DNA of 64,000 nucleotides from Tepidimicrobium xylanilyticum (GTDB lineage Bacteria > Bacillota > Clostridia > Tissierellales > Tepidimicrobiaceae): the NCBI RefSeq assembly GCF_900106765.1, contig NZ_FNNG01000001.1:65774-129773 (forward strand). The letters run 5' to 3'. Within the stretch, counting starts at the first letter, position 1; every line of letters starts with the position of its first letter. The translations under genes were made by a program, and so were the position numbers. The notes beneath the pieces were generated by a model that saw only the letters and a list, made by a program, of their open reading frames with translations, made no database searches and had not been told where the DNA came from. Shown one piece after another: positions 1 through 27,099 of the stretch.

Positions 1-1101
1 TTCAATTCCTTATAGGTAATCTAATAACTATAATACATTGAAGCATCCTTCAAACAAGAGGGCATGTTTCAATTCCTTATAGGTAATCTAATAACTATGC
101 AGATGGGTTTATCCCATCTCCAGTTCTCCTAGGTTTCAATTCCTTATAGGTAATCTAATAACCTTCTTTTAAATTCACATTTATCCCTCCCCATGACACA
201 GTTTCAATTCCTTATAGGTAATCTAATAACCTAATTATTGTTTTCATGTTAAATCCCTCATTTACAGTTTCAATTCCTTATAGGTAATCTAATAACTTAT
301 TATTTTATCACAGCTTAATAGAAATGCAGAAGGGTTTCAATTCCTTATAGGTAATCTAATAACGCGTTTGAAGTAGATGAAATTTCAGGAATTGAAGAAA
401 GTTTCAATTCCTTATAGGTAATCTAATAACCTTATTGTTTTTTATGAAATCCAAAGTTACTGCCGAAGTTTCAATTCCTTATAGGTAATCTAATAACGTT
501 AAACAAACATAGACGACCTTTAGCAGTACGTTAGTTTCAATTCCTTATAGGTAATCTAATAACCAAATTGCAGCAGGTCAACTGTATGGTGATGGAAAAG
601 GTTTCAATTCCTTATAGGTAATCTAATAACGATATACAAATGACAACGCTGGTAGCCCTACATCAACAGGTTTCAATTCCTTATAGGTAATCTAATAACG
701 TTGCTGAAACTATCGTCGTTATCACCACTATAAGCGTTTCAATTCCTTATAGGTAATCTAATAACTGTCCATGTTCGACTAACTGGGACTTGGTCATACC
801 CTCGTTTCAATTCCTTATAGGTAATCTAATAACGGGAAAAGCTAGAAAAGGCTCAAAATGCTCAAGGAAAGTTTCAATTCCTTATAGGTAATCTAATAAC
901 CCACCACAGTGTTTACATTTCAGAGCTTTTTCTTTGTTTCAATTCCTTATAGGTAATCTAATAACACGCCTGAGGCGTTATCTAATGCTGAAAGGCTTAG
1001 AGGTTTCAATTCCTTATAGGTAATCTAATAACAGGATTTATGTACCCCTCTTTATCTATTTGTTGTATAAGGTTTCAATTCCTTATAGGTAATCTAATAA
1101 C
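1..1101 (-). CRISPR. CRISPR array 1 (17 repeats in window)
   Basis: Seventeen copies of a 30-bp repeat, which on the + strand begins GTTTCAATTCC and ends ATCTAATAAC. They start at about 66, 133, 201, 267, 334, 401, 478, 534, 601, 670, 736, 804, 871, 936, 1003 and 1072, after a first copy cut by the left edge. Spacers are about 36-40 bp and all differ. Read on the minus strand the repeat ends in ATTGAAAC, the usual 5' handle of type I-B/III crRNAs, so the array is transcribed leftward with its leader on the right. The repeats are essentially invariant, as in an array under selection. The leader-distal end lies outside the window. Confidence 0.98.
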
Positions 1102-1145: not shown

Positions 1146-1233
1146 ATTGGAATTTTTTTAATTTTGGGTAGCTAATTGCTTGCTAAATCCTCTATAAGAT
1201 TGAATTATAGCCATTTGTTAAAAAGCATAAAAT

Positions 1234-1277
1234 GTCGTCGATCTCCAGGGGTTTTTACACTACTGGAGGTCGACGAC
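1234..1277. repeat. Leader-associated hairpin, copy 1
   Basis: Inverted repeat with 15-nt arms (1234-1248 and 1263-1277) starting GTCGTCGA and ending TCGACGAC, with a 14-nt loop. The arms pair fully apart from one G-T type mismatch. It lies 132 bp upstream of the leader-proximal repeat and about 30 bp after the last cas gene. A near-identical element sits 134 bp from the first repeat of array 2, where no cas gene is adjacent. It is therefore a leader component rather than only a cas terminator. Function unknown. Confidence 0.85.
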
Positions 1278-1305
1278 AATAATATTTAAACCATAGCTTG
1301 CATTT

Positions 1306-2187
1306 TTAACTTCTCATCTGGAATATTCCTCTTATTAATTTATAATTACAATCTCTATCTACTTTTATTTTACTACCAGGGATTACACAAATCTTACTCT
1401 TCTCTGCTTTTAATCGTGCTGAAGAAAAATCATAGTCAATTATTACATGTTCGATTGTTCCAACATGAAAAATCCTTTCTCCTTCTCTTATTTCATCATA
1501 GAATCCATCTGTTATTGAAAAGTAGTTTTTAAGAAACTTATCTTTTTCAAATATTGGTTTTCCTTCCTTTGTTATGCCCCAACAATTACTTAACTCATCA
1601 TTAGTTGCCTCATTTAATTGGACTAATTCATCTAATTTCATATTTCCTAGACCATATCTATTATCTCCTCCAACGATTATATTCGAATTTTTCTCTAAAA
1701 AAGTTTCTATTTCTTCTTTTTTGTCCTCGTCAATTCCTAATAATCCAATCCAATAAAGATTTTCTTTATTTTCATTTACAAATTTGGATTTAGGTAAAAT
1801 AACTTCTATTTCATGTAATGATTCATCTTTTGCGGTTAAAGATAATGGTTGTATAGATGTTGATACATACACATCGGTAAATTTAGCCCGAAATTTATTT
1901 TCTGAATAGTCTCCTAAGTAAAATTCTCCATTTTTATATTCAGGAAATAGTACCTTATTTTTTTTTCCCAATTTAGGATAGAAGCATGTAATTGATTCAA
2001 AAATTTTCTTTCCTTCTTCAAAATACTCTTCTTTTCCTTTGTGCTGACCGTATTTATTGACTAAAGCTCCCCATATTGTCCATCCAGGTATAAAAATTCT
2101 AGTTTCAGATAATACACCATAATTGAAAATGCCTATATGAATAGGGCTAATTTGTTTAAAAATAAGCTTGTACCATATTTTAGCCAT
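1306..2187 (-). CDS. Type III CRISPR RAMP protein, Cmr3-like (Cas5 group)
   Basis: About 293 aa. The N-terminal strand-loop reads as a RAMP: an LIFKQISPIHIG segment, then FIPGWTIWGALVNKY, which fits the loop and first helix of the ferredoxin-like RRM fold. A Gly-rich loop (GGDNRYGLGNMKL) near residue 190 matches the C-terminal RAMP signature. As last gene of a cmr-type operon it probably caps the crRNA 5' handle (Cmr3/Cas5 role); this is inference from position and size, and a Cmr6-type role is possible. The ATG at 2187 has an AAAGGTGG site and overlaps the end of the cmr5 gene, so I prefer it to an upstream TTG/ATG-type start near 2229. Confidence 0.75.
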   Translation of the reverse strand: MAKIWYKLIFKQISPIHIGIFNYGVLSETRIFIPGWTIWGALVNKYGQHKGKEEYFEEGKKIFESITCFYPKLGKKNKVLFPEYKNGEFYLGDYSENKFRAKFTDVYVSTSIQPLSLTAKDESLHEIEVILPKSKFVNENKENLYWIGLLGIDEDKKEEIETFLEKNSNIIVGGDNRYGLGNMKLDELVQLNEATNDELSNCWGITKEGKPIFEKDKFLKNYFSITDGFYDEIREGERIFHVGTIEHVIIDYDFSSARLKAEKSKICVIPGSKIKVDRDCNYKLIRGIFQMRS

Positions 2188-2623
2188 TGCTACCACCTTT
2201 TTTTGCTGCTTTAGCATGATACCTAGCATAAATTAAAGCTCTTTCTAAAATATCTCTAAAGAAAAGCAGTTTGTGAAGGTCTTTTGATAAATTTCTAAAA
2301 AACAGTTCATAATTAATTTTTCCATTGTTTTCTTTAAGTTCATTTTTAAAGTATTCTTTCAAGTCTTTTGTATTATTTATTTCATTTACTACGTATTCTA
2401 TAAAAATTTTTTCTATTGAACTATCATTTTTTTCTGTCTCCTCACTTTTCTTGTTATTATCTTTTGATTTTGCTTTGCAGAATACATAATAAGCGTAAAC
2501 ACCATCATTTACTAAAACACCCAATGCCTTATCTATAAACCCTCTTTTTTCATCGTTGTTACATCCTTTATTAATATTAAATCCCAATAAATTAACAAAG
2601 CTATCTATATTTAGGTTGGCCAC
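2180..2623 (-). CDS. cmr5: Type III CRISPR small subunit, Cmr5-like (Cas11)
   Basis: About 147 aa, helical, no membrane segment. The C-terminal helix (ALIYARYHAKAAKKG) resembles the conserved Cmr5 tail helix, and the size and place between cmr4 and the last RAMP fit the Cas11 small subunit that lines the target-strand groove. A charged low-complexity insert of Lys, Asn, Glu and Ser lies around residues 55-75. I chose GTG at 2623, which sits 7 nt after AGGAGGT. The in-frame GTG at 2632 abuts the same site and is too close. The end overlaps the next gene by 8 nt. Confidence 0.75.
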   Translation of the reverse strand: MANLNIDSFVNLLGFNINKGCNNDEKRGFIDKALGVLVNDGVYAYYVFCKAKSKDNNKKSEETEKNDSSIEKIFIEYVVNEINNTKDLKEYFKNELKENNGKINYELFFRNLSKDLHKLLFFRDILERALIYARYHAKAAKKGGSNG

Positions 2624-2650: not shown

Positions 2651-3844
2651 TTAATCTTCAAAATAAACTTTTAATCTACCAAATCCTCTGGTTACAAGTC
2701 CTCCAATACCAAAGCTTTCATAGTACATCCTGCTCTCTTTCAAAGCTTGTATGATTAAATCAGAATTTAATCCTTTATCTTCTAGTTTGTCCATTATCCT
2801 AACATTACCATAAAATACAGTACCTCTTGGAATAGCTTCCGATGTAAATAATGCACCCTCTTTTGCTGCTCCAGTAAGAGGATCTATAGAAACAGAAGTC
2901 CTAACTTCTAAATTTGCATTAATTATTTGAGAAATAATACTGTCCGATACTACTATTATTTTGTTTTTTATTATATTCTCTATTTCATTACCTAACGTAC
3001 TTATAACAATACTACCATCTAATCTATCTACTTTAAAATTAAGCCACCCTAAATTCAAAAATTCATAATTACCAGCATTATTTACAACTTTTATTTTATT
3101 ATCTGAAAAATCTTCTATTTCTCCTAATCCCGCTTCTCTTAGAATAGATGGTGAAGTTATCCACCTAACGCCAAATCGAGTGCTTACAGGGAAAAATAGT
3201 ATGTTTAAATCTGAAAAATATGCTAATCCTTGCTGCGATTGCTTTTTAGAAAATCCAAAGGTCTTACAAATTATACAGTGACCGCAGTGCCCTGTATCAT
3301 CCAATCCTTTATATGCTGAGTTTTCTGTATCATCACTAGGCTTATCATCTTGACCTGCACATTTTATTGATGAAATTAAATTTCCCCAGTAGAATTCCCA
3401 TTGAATATTATCTGATTTTTCATTTTGTGATTGCTTATTTTTGCCTTTTAATTCTTCAGATTTATTTTTAATTGTTTCTGCATATTTTATAAATTCTTCT
3501 TTTCTCCTACTGAACTTTTCTTCATCATTACTAAGATTATTATTTGCTAGCGTATTTACTAATTTTCTAACATCTTTAGCATCAATGTCTTTATTATCTT
3601 TATTATATTCTTTATTTAAAATATCACGTATTTTATCGAAATTCTCTCTATAAAATCCTTGCAAAGTAAGAGCTGTATAATACCTCCATGTTCCAGCCAG
3701 TGATGATCCTGGTATTTTTGGTATTCTAGTTATAGGATCTCTTACAATTGTATTATCTACCCTACCAATTGTATATCCTCCAGTCCCTATATATATAGGG
3801 TCTGTTGAAATAGCATAAATGTTAAACCCTTTGCAAACCGACAT
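2651..3844 (-). CDS. cmr4: Type III CRISPR RAMP protein Cmr4 (Cas7 backbone)
   Basis: 397 aa. The N-terminus YIGTGGYTIGRVDNTIVRD followed by IPGSSLAGTWR is the Cas7/Cmr4 pattern of Gly-loop, thumb loop and helix. Asp30 in GRVDN is in the place of the Cmr4 Asp that cleaves target RNA at 6-nt steps, so the RNase looks intact. Later, YFSDLNILFFPV and ITSPSILREAG match Cmr4 core motifs. A Cys/His cluster (GHCGHCIICKTFG, about residues 180-195) could bind zinc. The region about residues 90-150 is a charged insertion. The ATG follows AAGGGGG. The gene sits between csx11 and cmr5 in one leftward operon. Confidence 0.88.
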   Translation of the reverse strand: MSVCKGFNIYAISTDPIYIGTGGYTIGRVDNTIVRDPITRIPKIPGSSLAGTWRYYTALTLQGFYRENFDKIRDILNKEYNKDNKDIDAKDVRKLVNTLANNNLSNDEEKFSRRKEEFIKYAETIKNKSEELKGKNKQSQNEKSDNIQWEFYWGNLISSIKCAGQDDKPSDDTENSAYKGLDDTGHCGHCIICKTFGFSKKQSQQGLAYFSDLNILFFPVSTRFGVRWITSPSILREAGLGEIEDFSDNKIKVVNNAGNYEFLNLGWLNFKVDRLDGSIVISTLGNEIENIIKNKIIVVSDSIISQIINANLEVRTSVSIDPLTGAAKEGALFTSEAIPRGTVFYGNVRIMDKLEDKGLNSDLIIQALKESRMYYESFGIGGLVTRGFGRLKVYFED

Positions 3845-3856
3845 TTAAATACCCCC

Positions 3857-6800
3857 TTAAAACTTTTTCAAAGCCTTATGCCAGAATTCATACATATCTA
3901 TAAATCTCCACAACAATTTATTAAACTCATCTTTCTTCATACTCTCAAGTTTTTCCCAAGTCATTCCTTCTCCAAATAGTCTTGCAAAACAATCTCTTTT
4001 TTCTTGGCCAGTTCGTTCATCCTTCTCATTCAATTCAAATGTATTAACAAAAGCTGATAGCATAAGTTTCTTTAGACTTTCATCATTTCCTTCCCAGTCT
4101 TTTATTTTTGAATAAATTAAGCTAACCATATTATTAAGTTTATTTATTTTTTGCTTTTTAGTATCTTTGTCATCAAAAAAATAATCTTTAAATACCTTGA
4201 AATTTTCCCATTCTTCCCATGTATAAGGTCTGTTATGCTTTTCTCCTAAAATTCGCTTTCCCTTTTCATAATAGATATCATTTCTTCTAATATTGGTATC
4301 CAAAAATTCAAAGTCTATCGTATTCGGATATATTTCTAATTTAACTTCTTTATACTCTTCACCTTGTAAATCAGACATACCATCTATCACTATAAGTTTT
4401 CTTTTCATTTTCTCGTGTGGTTGAATATAGAATTCATATGCATTGCTATATTCATTTTCGTTAGTTTCATTCTTCATTTTTATTAGGTAAAGGCTGTAAT
4501 AGTTTTGAGGTTCATTCGTTTCTTCTATACTTTGATCTTTAAAATACTTCCTTTGAATTTCTTTAAAGCCTTGATAGTTTATTACTTTCTTTATATCTTC
4601 CCAACTTGTAATATCTCTTCTTATCTTTCTTAAAGCCTTTAATCCTATATACAAAGGCTTTTTGTAATCTTGTATTACAATTCCTATGTGTAATGGAAGC
4701 TTGCCTATTACATATTTGAAATTATTTTTATATTTTTCTTGGATTTTATCTATTACATTTGGTAAATACTCTGCTGGTATAATAAATTGCCATGAAATTG
4801 GAGTTGGATCAATTATTGATAAATAAGGTAAGTATGATTCATATTTTACTTTTGAATTGTCTAATTTTATGTTAGTTGCTTTCTTAGTATCATATTCTTC
4901 AAGTATAAACTCCTTAATCCAGTCTTTGCTACCTTCTTTATTATCCTTTTCAATCTTTTTTGTAATTTCTGCAAAGTCATCTTTTCCTTTTATATTCCCT
5001 ATAATTGGAATTGCTTGTTCAATGGATGAAATGAGATGTACATTTCCTTTTTCATCCACCCAGAAATCAAGACCTTTATAGGTATATTCCTTGCTTTTGT
5101 ATCTTTCATCGTTAACTACGTTTTCCCATACAATCCTTTTTGCTCTCCAATCTTCTATGCCAATCAACTTTTTGAGATCATTTTTAATTTCTATAAAAAA
5201 TTCTTCAGTTGTTTCCCATATCCTTCTAAGCCTTGCTGGTGAAGGATTTTTACGTAGTAAAAATTGGAGTAGTATTTCTGCAATATCCTTATAATGCTGC
5301 TGATTATTTTTTAACTGTTTCCATTCAATTTTATTTTCATTAAAATTAATGTTGTTTTCTAATTTATTCTTCATAAATTTTTCCCATCTATCTCCAATTG
5401 TTCGTTCTGTTAATAAAATATCAGTATAATTCTGTAATGTATATTTTATACCTTCAGTACTAATTAAATTTTTTAACATTGTTTTATTTAAAACATTTCC
5501 TTTCTTTATTCTAAGGTTTTTCTCTAATTCTTCTTTTTTGCTATTCCAATCATCAATTATTGCTAATATTGTATTTAGCATATTTCCATTTAACCATTCT
5601 TTTAGCTCAAATTTAACTGTTACTAAAGCAATTCTTCCATTTTTGTCTTGCAATTCTCCTGTCCATATGGTTTCTCCATTAATATTCTCAATCCAATTGT
5701 GAAATCTTGAAATTCTTCTTTTGTCACATTGATCACATATGACAAAATCTTCTTTCTTTATACCTAATTTCAATCTGCATATTTGACATAAACCATCATA
5801 ATTTTTAGCATTATTACTTTCCTCTTTACATTTGTCAATAAAATTTTTAGAATAAACAGATTTTAAGAAATTGTCTCTGCTATTTTCTAACAAATAAGCT
5901 ATGTTCATAGTACCTCTCGAAGGCTTTGTAACGAATATGGAAGGCATAAATTCGTTTTCAAAAATTTCATGTTTGTCTTCATCTAATTCGATTTCTTTAA
6001 AGGCATTCACTATTTTTTCTTTTAATTCACAAAAGTCGGCACTCAATTCTAAATTATAGCCATCTCCGCTTTTCTCTCCTATATTTTCAGGTACGATAAA
6101 ATATATTCCTGTTTCATCTCTGTATATTTCATTTCCCAATGCATAATCTATTTCAACTATCTCTTTAATTTTAGCATCAATTTTTTTCACAGCTACCCTA
6201 TACCAATCTACGAAATATGGCTTTAAGGCTTTTTCTGCTAAACCAAGCTTATCGTATTGAACTCCTAGTATGCTCCATTTTATCTTTTGTGGATTGTTTT
6301 TATATTCATTTACATTAGAATCTTCCAAAACCATAGCTGCAAGACTTGCTTTAAATAAAGATGCTGTCATATAAGCTTGATCCCACAATGTTACATCATT
6401 AATTGGAAATCTTGAATCGCTTAACAAATGAGAATACCAACTCTTTATTTCATTAATTACAAAATTTCTTAAATTTATCCAATCTTCTTCTGAAAAATCT
6501 TTAATTTCTTTATTTAATCTATTTATTTTATTAGCTAATTTATTGAAAAAACAAATTCGTTGTCTGTCTAACATATAAATACTAACGTCTTCTTTAAAAC
6601 TTCCGAATGCATTAGAAATCCAAAGTTTTTCTAATTCATTTTTTTCAGGAGGTTGTCCTTTATCTATTCCCGAATTTATATTTTCGCATCCTCTGAAAAA
6701 AATACCATTAACCAATTCTATCACATCATTATTAATATTTTCTTCTTTGGCTATTTCTTCAATTGCATTACCATAAATAATGTTTACTATTTTCGTATCT

Positions 6801-7117
6801 TTAATTTTATTTAAATTAATTTTCACATTAAAAAATTCCAATAACTTATCATCTATAGATTTTAAATCTATTTTAAATGGTGTTTCTTTATTTTGGTTTT
6901 TGATAGTATAATAACCTTTATATCTTGTAAAAGTTTTATATCCATACTCTTCTATAAAATCTTCCTCTGTAAAATTATTCTCAACTGTACAAAAATGCTT
7001 CCTCCAACCACTAAACCCAACATGGGTTTTTCCTAAATTGAAAAGCAGTGCTCCTATTTCAGCTTTAAGTATTTCTATATTTTTCTGTTTTAGATTTTCT
7101 AATCTTTCATCATTCAT
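3857..7117 (-). CDS. csx11: Cas10-family large subunit, Csx11 type, catalytic motifs degenerate
   Basis: 1086 aa. The Csx11 signature NPSPARLRRIWETT is at 624-637, with further family motifs RGCENINSGIDKG (142-154), NDVTLWDQ (240-247) and LPLHIGIVIQDYKKPLY (807-823). A zinc finger is formed by C444-x2-C447 and C461-x2-C464. The expected HD-nuclease motif HDxGK reads FNLGK (26-30), and the later WDH reads WDQ (245-247). The strand that carries GGDD in Cmr2 appears to read PTPIS (771-775). DNase and cyclase activity are therefore predicted lost, as described for type III-C Cas10. It should still scaffold the crRNA complex. The start overlaps the upstream RAMP gene by 8 nt. Confidence 0.9.
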   Translation of the reverse strand: MNDERLENLKQKNIEILKAEIGALLFNLGKTHVGFSGWRKHFCTVENNFTEEDFIEEYGYKTFTRYKGYYTIKNQNKETPFKIDLKSIDDKLLEFFNVKINLNKIKDTKIVNIIYGNAIEEIAKEENINNDVIELVNGIFFRGCENINSGIDKGQPPEKNELEKLWISNAFGSFKEDVSIYMLDRQRICFFNKLANKINRLNKEIKDFSEEDWINLRNFVINEIKSWYSHLLSDSRFPINDVTLWDQAYMTASLFKASLAAMVLEDSNVNEYKNNPQKIKWSILGVQYDKLGLAEKALKPYFVDWYRVAVKKIDAKIKEIVEIDYALGNEIYRDETGIYFIVPENIGEKSGDGYNLELSADFCELKEKIVNAFKEIELDEDKHEIFENEFMPSIFVTKPSRGTMNIAYLLENSRDNFLKSVYSKNFIDKCKEESNNAKNYDGLCQICRLKLGIKKEDFVICDQCDKRRISRFHNWIENINGETIWTGELQDKNGRIALVTVKFELKEWLNGNMLNTILAIIDDWNSKKEELEKNLRIKKGNVLNKTMLKNLISTEGIKYTLQNYTDILLTERTIGDRWEKFMKNKLENNINFNENKIEWKQLKNNQQHYKDIAEILLQFLLRKNPSPARLRRIWETTEEFFIEIKNDLKKLIGIEDWRAKRIVWENVVNDERYKSKEYTYKGLDFWVDEKGNVHLISSIEQAIPIIGNIKGKDDFAEITKKIEKDNKEGSKDWIKEFILEEYDTKKATNIKLDNSKVKYESYLPYLSIIDPTPISWQFIIPAEYLPNVIDKIQEKYKNNFKYVIGKLPLHIGIVIQDYKKPLYIGLKALRKIRRDITSWEDIKKVINYQGFKEIQRKYFKDQSIEETNEPQNYYSLYLIKMKNETNENEYSNAYEFYIQPHEKMKRKLIVIDGMSDLQGEEYKEVKLEIYPNTIDFEFLDTNIRRNDIYYEKGKRILGEKHNRPYTWEEWENFKVFKDYFFDDKDTKKQKINKLNNMVSLIYSKIKDWEGNDESLKKLMLSAFVNTFELNEKDERTGQEKRDCFARLFGEGMTWEKLESMKKDEFNKLLWRFIDMYEFWHKALKKF

Positions 7118-8369
7118 CCCCTACTCCCTCCATATTATCTTCTGAACTTTTAATAATAGTAGCTTTGCCCCATCCTAATTTAGTCTTAGCTCCTATACCT
7201 ATTTCTTCAATTGCATATCTTATAAGCCCCTCTAAAATCCTACGGTCAAGTTCAACTTGTTTTTCTAGTTCCTCCTTTGAAAGGACAATGGCATCATAAG
7301 GAATATAGACAATTTGAACAAATCCTTCACTACCACTTGGTACTACTTCATAATAGATAGGGCTACTTCCAGCCTTTGTGTTTCTATTGTGCGGATTTAT
7401 AACTTCCAAAGATACTTCCTCAAAATAGGTAGGATAGAATACTGCTCGTCCTCTTTTCACTGTAAAAATATTTCCATTATTACACAACTCTTCATTATGT
7501 TTAGTTATCTGTTCAAAGATTTGTTCTGCTACTCTTCTACCATCCCTTTTAATATTTAAATTTAAGCCTAAATCGCTTAATGCATATTTGATAAGCTGCT
7601 TTATTAAAAGGTCTTCATCTTTATTTTCTTTCTCATCAATAAACTTTTTTATTTCTTCTTCTATTTCCCTGTATTCTTTAGAGCCTGTCCCAAAAATTCT
7701 CGTAATGCTAAAATAGTATTCAAGTATTTCTTTTATGTTATTATTTTCAATTAAACCTTTCAATTTTTCTCTAGCAGCTTTTAATAGCATTCCTTTCCAG
7801 GTACTTCCCCTAATTATTGGTACTTTCCAAACCTTTTCCTTCATAACTGGATTGTCTATTATATAAAACTCATCATCATCTTTAGAAAAATAGGGAGAAT
7901 CAAGTTTAAACCTATATTTAAAGCCAAAAGAACCGGGAATAAGTTTTTTTATGTAATCTTCTAAATCATTTTCGGTGGGAAATATACCCATTAGAACATC
8001 TAAAACCTTAATATTATCAGTTTCATTTAAATTTGGTATTTGCAATTTTACCTTTTTTTGACTTTTAGGAAATATTTCCTGATTAAATCTTTGTTTTTCA
8101 GAAAGAATTTCTTTCTTAAACCATTCTAAACAAAATTCTTTTACTTTAGTTCTCTTTAAATTCCCATCACATCTATTGTTCACAAACCTGAATAATTTAT
8201 TAAAATCTCTTATTTCTCTTGCTTTCCTATCTGCATCTTTATGAGCTTTGTATTTATATGAATACTTTAGAAAATGAAATATTTCATCATATTGATTAGC
8301 CTCATTATTTATTTGGCTTTTATTTATGTTTACTTTATTTAAATCTTCCAATATAACCTCAAAATTCAC
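7110..8369 (-). CDS. Type III CRISPR RAMP protein, Cmr6-like, with basic N-terminal extension
   Basis: 419 aa. Residues from about 135 carry a RAMP domain: KVPIIRGSTWKGMLLKAAR is the Gly-loop/helix signature, and IGIGAKTKLGWGKA near residue 395 is the C-terminal Gly-rich loop. Between them, NPHNRNTKAGSSPIYYEVV resembles Cas7-group Cmr6-like proteins of Csx11 operons. The first ~110 residues are rich in Lys, Arg and aromatic residues and match no RAMP part I know; they may touch RNA. The start is GTG, preceded by GGGGGTG. The order cmr1 - this gene - csx11 supports a terminal backbone subunit role; the exact family name is uncertain. Confidence 0.75.
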   Translation of the reverse strand: MNFEVILEDLNKVNINKSQINNEANQYDEIFHFLKYSYKYKAHKDADRKAREIRDFNKLFRFVNNRCDGNLKRTKVKEFCLEWFKKEILSEKQRFNQEIFPKSQKKVKLQIPNLNETDNIKVLDVLMGIFPTENDLEDYIKKLIPGSFGFKYRFKLDSPYFSKDDDEFYIIDNPVMKEKVWKVPIIRGSTWKGMLLKAAREKLKGLIENNNIKEILEYYFSITRIFGTGSKEYREIEEEIKKFIDEKENKDEDLLIKQLIKYALSDLGLNLNIKRDGRRVAEQIFEQITKHNEELCNNGNIFTVKRGRAVFYPTYFEEVSLEVINPHNRNTKAGSSPIYYEVVPSGSEGFVQIVYIPYDAIVLSKEELEKQVELDRRILEGLIRYAIEEIGIGAKTKLGWGKATIIKSSEDNMEGVGDE

Positions 8370-8373
8370 TATT

Positions 8374-9456
8374 TCACCCCCTAGGAAACTTTTCTAGTAA
8401 AATCAAAGAAATAAAACCGTATTCATATTTATTATCTTCAACATGATTAATCCAAGGTATTATTTTAGTAGCATTTGGCCCTTCAATTTCTCCATATTTA
8501 TCTCTTTCCGTAGACCCAAATACAAAATGTCGTTTTGCTTTTCGTTTACATAAATATCTTAAACTACTCTTTTCACTAAGAAGTATTTTTATCATATCTA
8601 AATATATTTTTTCTGGTTTTTCCTTGTTTTTAGATTCATAAAAACCAGGCCTATAAAATCCAATCTTTCTTTCATTTACTAAATCATCATTAATTAAATG
8701 GTCAAATTCCTCCTTTTCCTTAATAACATCATCAATTTTTACAGTTTTATTATAAAAACTAAATTGATTAAATTCTGATAGATTAGTCCTCTCTGAAAGA
8801 TTAGTATTCTCTAAATCAAATTTAACTCTTCCAAATCCTAAATTGTTTTTTCCACCAACAAAACCATATTTTTGAATAAAATTTAAAAGTGGAAATATTA
8901 TATCCTGACCAACTTTTTTATCTGCTAATTCTAATTTAATTTTCGCTTCACCAAATAAACAGGGGTCAGGAAAGTACCATGCATGTTCTTTTTCTTTATC
9001 AATATTTCCTGGACACTTTTTTATTCCATTCTTAATTACTGGATATTCTTCCTTCCAACCATCTTGTTTTTCCTTTTCTTTATATATGACACAAGGTAAT
9101 TCTATCTGTTTATTACAAAAATCAATTTCTTTTATCCTAACAAAACCTTCCCAGCCATTACACCCAAATAGCTGTGATGGAATAGATATAGCAAGTTCTT
9201 TTAATGCTTCTTTCTTTGCTTCGGGTAATGAAATTTCCTGCCTTTCTAGGATTTCATTTACTTTAGAAAAGAATGTACTTTGCTTTACTTCATTCTTACA
9301 ATTTATATCAAGTTCTCCTGCTGCATAGCAAATAACTTCAAGCCAAAATCTTAAAGAACCTAATAAAGATTGAGGTTTTAAATTATGACTTTCACTAAAC
9401 GCATCACCTGTACATAATGGAGTTTGAGTTATCATTTTAACTTCAATGTTTGACAA
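8374..9456 (-). CDS. cmr1: Type III CRISPR RAMP protein Cmr1
   Basis: 360 aa. The N-terminus fits Cmr1: TQTPLCTGDA, then PQSLLGSLRFWLEVI, the conserved SLRFW helix of the first RAMP unit. A Gly-rich loop GGKNNLGFGRVKF lies around residues 198-210. Cmr1 binds the 3' end of the crRNA or target in type III-B and related complexes. It is the first gene of the cas operon, with a TTG start 7 nt after AGGAGGTG and only 4 nt from the next gene. A Cmr1 subunit argues for a Cmr-type (III-B or III-C) rather than a Csm-type complex. Confidence 0.85.
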   Translation of the reverse strand: MSNIEVKMITQTPLCTGDAFSESHNLKPQSLLGSLRFWLEVICYAAGELDINCKNEVKQSTFFSKVNEILERQEISLPEAKKEALKELAISIPSQLFGCNGWEGFVRIKEIDFCNKQIELPCVIYKEKEKQDGWKEEYPVIKNGIKKCPGNIDKEKEHAWYFPDPCLFGEAKIKLELADKKVGQDIIFPLLNFIQKYGFVGGKNNLGFGRVKFDLENTNLSERTNLSEFNQFSFYNKTVKIDDVIKEKEEFDHLINDDLVNERKIGFYRPGFYESKNKEKPEKIYLDMIKILLSEKSSLRYLCKRKAKRHFVFGSTERDKYGEIEGPNATKIIPWINHVEDNKYEYGFISLILLEKFPRG

Positions 9457-9652: not shown

Positions 9653-9682
9653 TTTTCAATTTCTTATAAGTAATCTCCCAAC
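9653..9682 (-). repeat. Isolated degenerate CRISPR repeat
   Basis: 24 of 30 positions match the array repeat in the same orientation, with the changes at its ends and at two internal sites. No second repeat is at spacer distance and no leader promoter is beside it. It is probably a relic of an array that once lay upstream of the cas operon. Confidence 0.75.
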
Positions 9683-25568: not shown

Positions 25569-26532
25569 ACAAATACCTTATAGGTAAATCTAATAACAAA
25601 TAAAACAAATTAAAGTTGAAGGGTTGGACTTTTTGTTTCAATTCCTTATAGGTAATCTAATAACCTATCATGAGTAAGGGTCATAGCTTGATAAGTATTG
25701 TGTTTCAATTCCTTATAGGTAATCTAATAACTAGACAAACAAGTGCCTGAAACAGTAATTGATTCTATGTTTCAATTCCTTATAGGTAATCTAATAACCT
25801 ATCATGAGTAAGGGTCATAGCTTGATAAGTATTGTGTTTCAATTCCTTATAGGTAATCTAATAACTAGACAAACAAGTGCCTGAAACAGTAATTGATTCT
25901 ATGTTTCAATTCCTTATAGGTAATCTAATAACTTACCACTACTGTCTAAGGAGGGTGATAAGTTATGAGGTTTCAATTCCTTATAGGTAATCTAATAACA
26001 CATCATTCAGAAAAGCTATAGGTACTATATACTTTTAGTTTCAATTCCTTATAGGTAATCTAATAACTAATGTTTCACTTGTAAAGCCACCTACTGTAGT
26101 CCCGTTTCAATTCCTTATAGGTAATCTAATAACTATATGTTAGATTTCCTAGGTGGGTAAGAGTAACTATGTTTCAATTCCTTATAGGTAATCTAATAAC
26201 GGGTTTCAGCGTTTAGTGATGTTAGATAGATATTCATGTTTCAATTCCTTATAGGTAATCTAATAACCCATCTTCTCCATGCTCGTATCAATTTACCACC
26301 CCTGTTTCAATTCCTTATAGGTAATCTAATAACTTAAAATTGGAGTTATCCAGGGAATATACATTGGACGTTTCAATTCCTTATAGGTAATCTAATAACA
26401 ATAAGAAATAAACTTACCTTCTATACTCTCCCCCGCGTTTCAATTCCTTATAGGTAATCTAATAACTTTGTAGAGAAGCCAAGTTTTCGAGCAATTGCCT
26501 ACGTTTCAATTCCTTATAGGTAATCTAATAAC
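25569..26532 (-). CRISPR. CRISPR array 2 (14 intact repeats plus one degenerate)
   Basis: Same 30-bp repeat and orientation as array 1. Intact copies start at 25635, 25702, 25769, 25836, 25903, 25970, 26038, 26104, 26171, 26238, 26304, 26370, 26437 and 26503. A degenerate copy (about 25569-25597, with a 1-nt insertion) marks the leader-distal end. Spacers are 36-38 bp. Two neighbouring repeat-spacer units (spacers at 25665 and 25732) are repeated exactly at 25799 and 25866, a tandem duplication. The leader is on the right. No cas gene adjoins the array, so it must use proteins encoded elsewhere. Confidence 0.98.
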
Positions 26533-26576: not shown

Positions 26577-26666
26577 TCGATTTAATTATTACAATAATGT
26601 AATATTTTTTATATGGATTTAGCTGTAATCATTGAAATTATCATGTTTTTTCAAAAAAATAAGTTT

Positions 26667-26710
26667 GTCGTCGATCTCCAGGGGTTTCTGCACTATTGGA
26701 GGTCGACGAC
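26667..26710. repeat. Leader-associated hairpin, copy 2
   Basis: Arms 26667-26681 and 26696-26710 (15 nt) around a 14-nt loop. It differs from copy 1 at three positions: two in the loop and one that keeps a G-T pair in the stem. It is 134 bp from the first repeat (132 bp in array 1). A 70-codon frame running through it on the + strand is not credible as a gene. Confidence 0.85.
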
Positions 26711-26881
26711 AATTATTTTCTTAAAATCTAAAATTATTAATGGTTCTCTATATGATAGAAAAACACTAATAAATAAAGAGGAAACAAATTATATAGCTTT
26801 TATTCGGTCACTATGTATTGAATAGCTCAACAAAAAATGACAGATAAGCTAATATTCTATGAAAATCGCTGACATTGCATT

Positions 26882-27056
26882 ATTTCGATTCCTTATATGT
26901 AATCTAATAACGGATGAAAAAACAATTATAATCAAAAAGTTTTATTAATTATATCAATATATCAATTCCTTATAGGTAGTCTATAAAGGTTGCATATATA
27001 CAATTACTGGGCAAGTCTGTATAGAGTTTTAATCCCTTATAGGGTAATCTATTTAT
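26882..27056 (-). CRISPR. Decayed CRISPR array 3 (three degenerate repeats)
   Basis: Three repeat relics in the same orientation: 26882-26911 (27 of 30 matches), 26959-26988 (about 23 of 30) and 27026-27056 (one inserted G plus substitutions). The interval between the first two is 47 bp and between the last two 37 bp. The leader promoter at 27071-27099 is at the right place for this array, so the unit was once a full locus. Confidence 0.8.
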
Positions 27057-27070
27057 AGTCCTTTAATTTG

Positions 27071-27099
27071 ATATTACTATGTTACTATTCCCTTGTCAA
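27071..27099 (-). promoter_or_regulatory. Leader promoter of decayed array 3
   Basis: TTGACA (27099-27094), 17-bp spacer, TAATAT (27076-27071) on the minus strand. The -10 lies about 15 bp from the end of the last repeat relic. The promoter is intact although the repeats are not. The leader hairpin expected ~110 bp further right is absent, since guaA begins to occupy that space. Confidence 0.75.

Follow-up and report, generated by a model that had tools for sequence, protein, structure and literature searches.

The DNA analyzed here is a stretch of 64,000 nucleotides from Tepidimicrobium xylanilyticum (contig NZ_FNNG01000001.1, positions 65,774 to 129,773 of the forward strand), which we call the window and whose positions we use throughout. 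Near its left end six genes follow each other on the minus strand, from 9456 down to 1306, in the order cmr1, cmr6, csx11, cmr4, cmr5, cmr3. By the direction of transcription a CRISPR array with the minus-strand repeat GTTATTAGATTACCTATAAGGAATTGAAAC lies downstream of this operon. We assign the locus to type III-C because the third reading frame is Csx11 by TIGR02682, and the features of that type are present: a Csx11-type Cas10, Cmr1, Cmr3, Cmr4, Cmr5 and Cmr6 beside it, and a replaced Palm2 motif. Type III defense is thought to run mainly through two activities of Cas10. The Csx11 described here has lost the canonical sites for both, the neighboring Cmr4 keeps its ribonuclease aspartate, and within its branch of the family the strictest conservation of Csx11 is found in the Palm1 domain.

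A preliminary description of the sequence had read the HD motif of Csx11 as FNLGK (Phe26-Asn27), a later WDH as WDQ247, and PTPIS (residues 771-775) where GGDD is expected. The open reading frame bears out all three readings. For comparison we used profiles of 20 Csm1 and 20 Cmr2-type proteins, obtained from searches of 199 genomes of the same phylum each and represented by the longest open reading frame per locus. GGDD is present in 20/20 Csm1 and 19/20 Cmr2-type controls, and HD(x)(G/A)(K/R) in 18/20 Csm1. When the Csx11 family profile is aligned with that of Csm1 (probability 97.6, E = 3.3e-12), GALLFNLGK pairs with GGLLHDIGK, NDVTLWDQAYMTAS with SDISLFDHSKITAA, CENINSG with ADNISSG and PTPIS with AGGDD. 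The Cmr2-type profile (local mode, probability 87.3) is a weaker match but gives the same register for HD and GGDD, so that F26-N27 fall on HD and T772-S775 on GGDD in both. It places a glycine opposite Q247, where Csm1 has the histidine, and our reading of Q247 therefore leans on Csm1 and on HD-positive Csx11 relatives with WDH. The solved Pyrococcus Cmr2 is matched weakly (E = 0.003) and only by the stretch just after PTPIS. By these pairings Csx11 has other residues in place of the HD pair, of the histidine that Csm1 has in DH and of the two aspartates of GGDD, and the aspartate of the AD motif has become glutamate (E145), a conservative change among the ligand positions of the HD domain. 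The HD, AD and DH positions are presumably metal ligands. With F26-N27, E145 and Q247 at these positions Csx11 lacks the features of an HD DNase, and by the profile alignment it also lacks the GGDD-type Palm2 needed for signaling by cyclic oligoadenylate.

The losses also hold in the structure prediction which, with the alignment, had been proposed as a check. The AlphaFold2 model (mean pLDDT 86.1, pTM 0.90) aligns over residues 14-1086 with Csm1 of T. onnurineus (4uw2; Z 18.5, root-mean-square deviation (rmsd) 4.0, 554 residues aligned). Because the model retains the whole Cas10 fold, the domains are present though altered, and as far as a model can tell the active sites were lost by substitution within this fold. 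A mere misalignment of HD and GGDD is ruled out, as both motifs have the same register in two profiles and the protein folds as Cas10 over its whole length. An alternative intact site would speak against the losses. For HD there is none, since not one HD dipeptide occurs in all 1086 residues; for the cyclase, the invariant acids of Palm1 (see below) lie about two residues off the canonical metal positions by the registers read. A match to the carbohydrate-binding family PF03173 (5.5e-4, below cut-off) we regard as chance.

The backbone subunit Cmr4 is different in this respect. Its Asp30, said in the preliminary description to be retained, indeed pairs with the aspartate of GVVDQPIQRE in solved Cmr4 (8.8 bits for the segment alone, E = 6.5e-14 for the whole match). 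The aspartate of PfCmr4 is reportedly the tested ribonuclease residue. Next to the 78 aligned Csx11 described below, two loci gave no Cmr4; the residue is aspartate in 76/76 of the Cmr4 found, including 10/10 at HD-positive loci. Judged by this alignment the catalytic aspartate of Cmr4 is kept throughout III-C in the sample. The coordinates of these and the other features are collected in Table 1.

Table 1. Features of the III-C locus and its surroundings (window positions)
Feature	Position	Strand	Basis or remark
cmr1, 360 residues, TTG start	8374..9456	minus	PADLOC Cmr1 6.6e-63; RAMP Pfam
cmr6, 419 residues, about 140 of them ahead of the Cmr6 match	7110..8369	minus	PADLOC Cmr6 8.5e-77, residues 140-412
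csx11 (cas10 of type III-C), 1086 residues	3857..7117	minus	TIGR02682 541 bits, cut-off 249; PADLOC Cas10c 9e-125; whole-length Csm1 fold
F26-N27, position of HD pair	7037..7042	minus	Profile alignments; HD-positive Csx11 relatives
E145, position of Asp in AD motif of HD domain	6683..6685	minus	Csm1 profile; E in 24/24 readable branch rows
Q247 (W245 D246 Q247), position of His in (F/W)DH	6377..6379	minus	Csm1 profile (H of FDHSK); Q in 26/26 branch rows, pattern-biased count
Palm1 first-strand end, residues 284-295, LGVQYDKLGLAE	6233..6268	minus	Third most conserved 12-residue segment of branch; model strand 281-287
Palm1 beta-hairpin, residues 329-340, NEIYRDETGIYF	6098..6133	minus	Most conserved 12-residue segment of branch; model strands 329-334, 337-343
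Zinc-finger cysteines C444, C447, C461, C464	5726..5788	minus
T772-P773-I774-S775 (after P771), position of Palm2 GGDD	4793..4804	minus	Csm1 and Cmr2-type profiles
cmr4 (Cas7), 397 residues	2651..3844	minus	TIGR02580 109.7 bits, cut-off 87
Cmr4 Asp30, RNase Asp	3755..3757	minus	Alignment to solved Cmr4; D in 76/76 aligned Cmr4
cmr5 (small subunit), 150 residues	2180..2632	minus	PADLOC Cmr5 5.3e-30
cmr3 (Cas5), 307 residues as listed; start may be Met15	1306..2229	minus	PADLOC Cmr3 1.3e-72, residues 19-304
Leader-side element with palindrome, 77% like 26636-26719 next to array 2	1203..1286	unspecified
CRISPR array 1, 16 perfect 30-nucleotide repeats in window, continues leftward	66..1101	minus
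CRISPR array 2, repeat identical to array 1, 14 perfect repeats	25635..26532	minus

How common is such a Csx11? We searched for the family in 398 genomes, all from a single phylum, and found Csx11 in 23 of them, in 21 above the cut-off. Among the 25 proteins read, three of which come from matches below the family cut-off (one of them partial), HD is present in 10 and absent in 15. The other rows of our comparison came mostly from the peptide patterns ND[VI][TS]LW[DE]Q or [LM]G[IV]QYDKL, and since these demand the very stretches in question, the counts for Q247 and for the first strand of Palm1 are biased. After removal of rows below 800 residues (12 loci) and of 6 exact duplicates, 78 Csx11 were aligned; in this pattern-biased set 10 have HD, 65 do not and 3 are unreadable. 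On a quick, unrooted LG+G4 tree the HD state changes at least 3 times; as the tree is drawn, and if HD is ancestral and was never regained, we count 6 separate losses. A published survey (PMC11229360) describes III-C loci as lacking cyclase sites, in agreement with the earlier statement that the III-C cyclase is inactive, and reports a recognizable HD in only half of them. A Csx11 with both sites gone is ordinary for III-C, and the description of the complex as unusually bare has to be given up.

What sets our Csx11 apart is the branch to which it belongs. This branch comprises 26 rows (SH-aLRT 100, median pairwise identity 41%), many from metagenome bins, with members from Clostridia, Tissierellia, WOR-3, Neomarinimicrobiota, Aminicenantes, Thermosipho, Cloacimonadota, Sulfurihydrogenibium, Desulfonauticus, Paceibacterota, Gracilibacteria and Methanocaldococcus. 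H26 or D27 occurs in 0/24 readable rows, E145 in 24/24, Q247 in 26/26 (with the bias just mentioned) and serine at 775 in 26/26. The other HD-less Csx11 retain H26 (41/41 readable) and H145 (42/42), which makes this branch the most stripped. The frame is whole in 23/26 rows; one ends at a contig edge (L060) and two are interrupted (L056 and L080). Despite these two, that the replacements are common to many phyla argues against recent decay.

Some observations on Csx11 copies elsewhere may be added. Relatives were not found in viral contigs; plasmids gave three distant ones (25-26% identity). A genome that contributes locus L032 carries a very divergent second Csx11 of 1242 residues with intact HD and WDH (L054, 7343-11071). 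Three reading frames take the place of csx11, through decay or sequencing errors, at L078 and L081 (Thermoanaerobacter thermocopriae and a Hydrogenothermaceae bin). For the branch member at L075 (8992-12117) no Cmr gene was found in the 13.5 kb of its locus, and it is perhaps an orphan copy; the same bin holds a whole operon (L070).

No match to Cmr2 or Csm1 was obtained in the rest of the genome, thus the double-null Csx11 is the only Cas10 found. This speaks against a second Cas10 as signal source; as to the two sub-threshold Palm2 matches, the one on contig C8 is a GGDEF protein and the other a 110-residue match on contig C4. Contig C16 carries a type III-A remnant devoid of Cas10 (L142, 3289-7599; cas6, csm4, a split csm5 and an N-terminally short csm3), and its CARF-HEPN gene, the sole CARF-HEPN locus of the genome, is broken by in-frame stops. 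By the families tried there is no intact CARF effector and no Csx1_HEPN in the genome; the controls of the SAVED search were silent. A search of 149 genomes with PF18182 gave no clear stand-alone mCpol, its six matches lying in frames of 538-637 residues, all at places that the Cmr2 search had matched too. Finally, clustering of 715 neighboring reading frames, with families in at least 4 loci considered, gave no accessory gene common to the branch that would replace the lost functions.

The plainest reading of the locus is that of a guided RNase, and we lean towards it: a type III-C effector operon with an array in cis would specify an RNA-cutting complex guided by CRISPR RNA (crRNA), with Csx11 as a structural protein. 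We suggest that it acts in the following way. A processed crRNA would guide the Cmr-like complex to matching transcripts, which the Cmr4 backbone would cut once bound. Csx11, with neither a working HD DNase nor a working Palm2 cyclase, would be a large subunit of structural use. Cas6 would be supplied from elsewhere, and so would Cas1, needed for new spacers; no cas6, cas1 or cas2 is seen among the reading frames adjoining the operon, and genes for Cas6 and Cas1 are present in a type I-B locus on contig C5. The similar repeats of the I-B and III-C arrays and the leader palindrome common to all three arrays (two III-C, one I-B) would fit a shared uptake of spacers. The main defense provided by the locus is probably the cutting of RNA that matches its spacers, and the strictly conserved other spot in Csx11 may have some function not yet known. 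Sequence and model together speak for the gene identities and their order, the fold, the loss of both canonical sites and the retained aspartate of Cmr4; from these we infer RNA cutting by Cmr4 at this locus, no collateral activity and crRNAs in trans, and we take the conserved Palm1 stretch to have a role in structure, in RNA sensing or in ligand binding and not that of a canonical cyclase. The preliminary description had offered two outcomes, a guided RNase and nothing else, or signaling by another route. The first gains from the loss of both canonical sites, the kept Cas7 aspartate, the lack of a second Cas10 and the broken CARF-HEPN gene. The second keeps its place, since the hyper-conserved acidic and polar Palm1 stretch of the branch may bind a ligand or have a noncanonical catalytic role.

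Several points weigh against the guided RNase. Within the branch, conservation of Csx11 peaks at the hairpin of Palm1 and the first Palm1 strand ranks third, which a merely structural subunit does not explain. The literature searched yielded neither an experiment on, nor an activity of, any III-C complex, so that RNA cutting is deduced from one residue. The spacers, compared with phage records, gave only repeat-like matches and one marginal match of 27 bases (E about 1).

The conservation of Palm1 deserves a closer look. The hairpin has a mean entropy of 0.09 bits per column in the 26 branch rows versus 1.80 in the 52 other Csx11; the second most conserved 12-residue segment is 623-634, KNPSPARLRRIW. 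The hairpin ranks first in 200/200 subsets made of this Csx11 and 12 random rows and likewise in the 7 rows found without peptide patterns; the patterns themselves do not include the hairpin. In the HD-positive Csx11 it is fourth (0.92 bits) and in the other HD-less Csx11 outside the top five. The top two segments of the Csm1 controls (n = 20) are RADVDNMG and AGGDD of Palm2, followed by DISGIQ of Palm1; in the Cmr2-type controls (n = 20) AGGDD leads and the DGD motif takes fourth place. The branch thus shows in the other palm, Palm1, the pattern of conservation typical of an active palm, which casts further doubt on the word bare. We found no description of such a branch in the literature searched. 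Its invariant Palm1 acids are D289, D334 and E335.

It is quite possible, though we would not call it probable, that this stretch is an interface which holds Cmr3, the 5' tag of the crRNA or the target's 3' flank, and that the complex acts by cutting or binding RNA alone. E322 (78/78), Y332 (77/78) and D334 (76/78) are near-invariant in Csx11 whatever the HD state, and PMC8964682 reports that the target binds with its 3' flank to the Palm domains and to Csm4. Together with PMC13060164 it locates ATP and the 3' flank at the Palm1-Palm2 surface, and therefore an RNA-sensing or interface role of the stretch is at least as open as a catalytic one. D289, however, is specific to the branch (26/26 versus 9/52 elsewhere) and E335 varies outside it, though the partner genes are the same.

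It is unlikely, yet worth considering, that Palm1 took over, that is, that an edge cluster of Q287-Y288-D289, E330 and R333-D334-E335 binds a nucleotide or other ligand and makes or senses a product, so that the complex still signals. The ranking of the hairpin, its stability in the subsets, the contrast with the controls and the distribution of D289 would all fit. A model of the Palm1 fragment (pLDDT 86.2) has its best structural matches in the active single-palm cyclase mCpol (Z 8.6, 8.4 and 8.2; for 9pd0_C, Z 8.6 with rmsd 3.2 and 100 residues aligned), followed by Cas10, guanylate cyclases and GGDEF domains, and KpOptS is active through Asp6 and Asp57 though GGDEF is nearly absent, according to the excerpt of PMC12657218. 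But a palm fold is expected for any Cas10 Palm1 and shows no function, and Foldseek alone gave no match to the fragment under E = 0.001. Asp6 of mCpol falls on Q287, not on D289 (in the reported range, with model residue 17 set on chain residue 1 and no gap assumed), and the hairpin register of the profile alignment puts the GGDD aspartates on T336-G337. At both places the invariant acids are about 2 residues off the metal positions, and a canonical two-metal site in Palm1 is therefore unsupported; a shifted or different site may still exist. Moreover, the first strand of Palm1 is third in Csm1 too, where Palm2 catalyzes, D334 is kept with or without HD, and searches with the families tried gave no partner effector that is intact. 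A bolder version, in which the catalytic center of a widespread III-C branch moved from Palm2 to Palm1 and Q287-Y288-D289 with R333-D334-E335 make or sense a nucleotide after target-RNA binding, is a long shot. If true, the "dead" Cas10 complexes of the branch would still signal, and both the chemistry and the receptor would be new to science.

A further idea, which we judge rather improbable, is that the operon works only with a partner: Cas3 of the I-B system would destroy the DNA and the III-C complex remove the transcripts. The I-B locus on C5 comprises cas8b, cas7, cas3, cas6 and cas1 with its own array (Cas6 is also encoded on C16), and the I-B and III-C repeats are alike at 26/30 positions. 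A Cas3-like protein, so labeled from its sequence, lies near 15/90 sequences compared, many of which are cut short; this is a minority of loci, however, and nothing shows physical coupling. That the locus is decaying and non-functional is very improbable, for although canonical sites are lost, a few relatives have interrupted csx11 frames and the III-A remnant proves that decay occurs in this genome, there are six intact frames and two arrays, and the same losses are common to 26 proteins of many phyla with strict conservation elsewhere.

The arrays and neighborhoods show some further details. The palindromic leader element GTCGTCGACCTCCAG...CTGGAGATCGACGAC is found at 1258-1274 and 26691-26707 (minus strand) beside both III-C arrays, and at L140 18656-18672, where it immediately precedes this genome's I-B array. 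A Defluviitalea locus has it at three places (L069; 1811, 6017 and 15271), two of which flank the III-C operon there. From both arrays 28 spacers of 35-39 nucleotides were read, 26 of them different; two spacers of array 2 are each present twice in the same order (25635-25938), which looks like the duplication of a two-spacer unit. No exact 21-base match of a spacer was found elsewhere in the window. A degenerate repeat (24/30 identical) lies at 9653-9682 on the minus strand, about 200 bp upstream of cmr1, and decayed repeats at about 26880-27080 upstream of array 2; they could be remnants or a regulatory mini-array. The gene order given above is kept in 64/65 loci with all six genes (L102 is the exception), and L122 has an extra Cmr4-like gene. 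Recurrent neighbor families, labeled from sequence, include apparent Cas3, Cas6, Cas1 and Cas2, methylase-like and helicase-like proteins and an ABC ATPase. The large methylase-like protein stands beside nine III-C loci (L034, L041, L044, L053, L078, L086, L087, L094, L100) and the helicase-like one beside eight (L034, L038, L041, L044, L052, L053, L089, L125), an arrangement as in a defense island.

A branch that spans phyla, lacks both Cas10 activities and keeps the RNase aspartate of Cmr4 raises the question whether immunity can last when the cutting of RNA is its only means. In our view the displaced conservation of Palm1 is the part worth following, as it makes "dead Cas10" a testable claim; the handful of Palm1 residues in the strictest-conserved stretch are concrete targets for mutations that ask whether such a Cas10 is silent.

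Among the known systems, the locus shares with III-C (Csx11/Cas10c) the signature Cas10 family, the Cmr gene set and the inactive cyclase (excerpts of PMC11229360, PMC8730458 and PMC12669027); here HD is lost as well, which according to PMC11229360 is true of roughly half of III-C. The "III-C" of PMC11090510, in the part available, is another system. The stand-alone cyclase mCpol/OptS (Panoptes), the closest fold to the Palm1 fragment, is active with Asp6 and Asp57, whereas the equivalent Palm1 positions are non-acidic here by the registers read. Systems with an inactivated Cas10 cyclase are said in the excerpt of PMC12669027 to keep HD and lose the Cas7 aspartate, which is the reverse of what we find. 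With III-B (Cmr) our locus has in common the subunits Cmr1, 3, 4, 5 and 6 and the RNase aspartate of Cmr4, but not GGDD, HD or, by the families tried in the genome, an intact CARF effector. Type III-E (Cas7-11) acts by target RNA cleavage alone, as stated in the excerpt of PMC8730458 and as we propose here; there, however, one fused protein without Cas10 does the work, whereas here six genes and a whole Cas10 fold would serve the same end.

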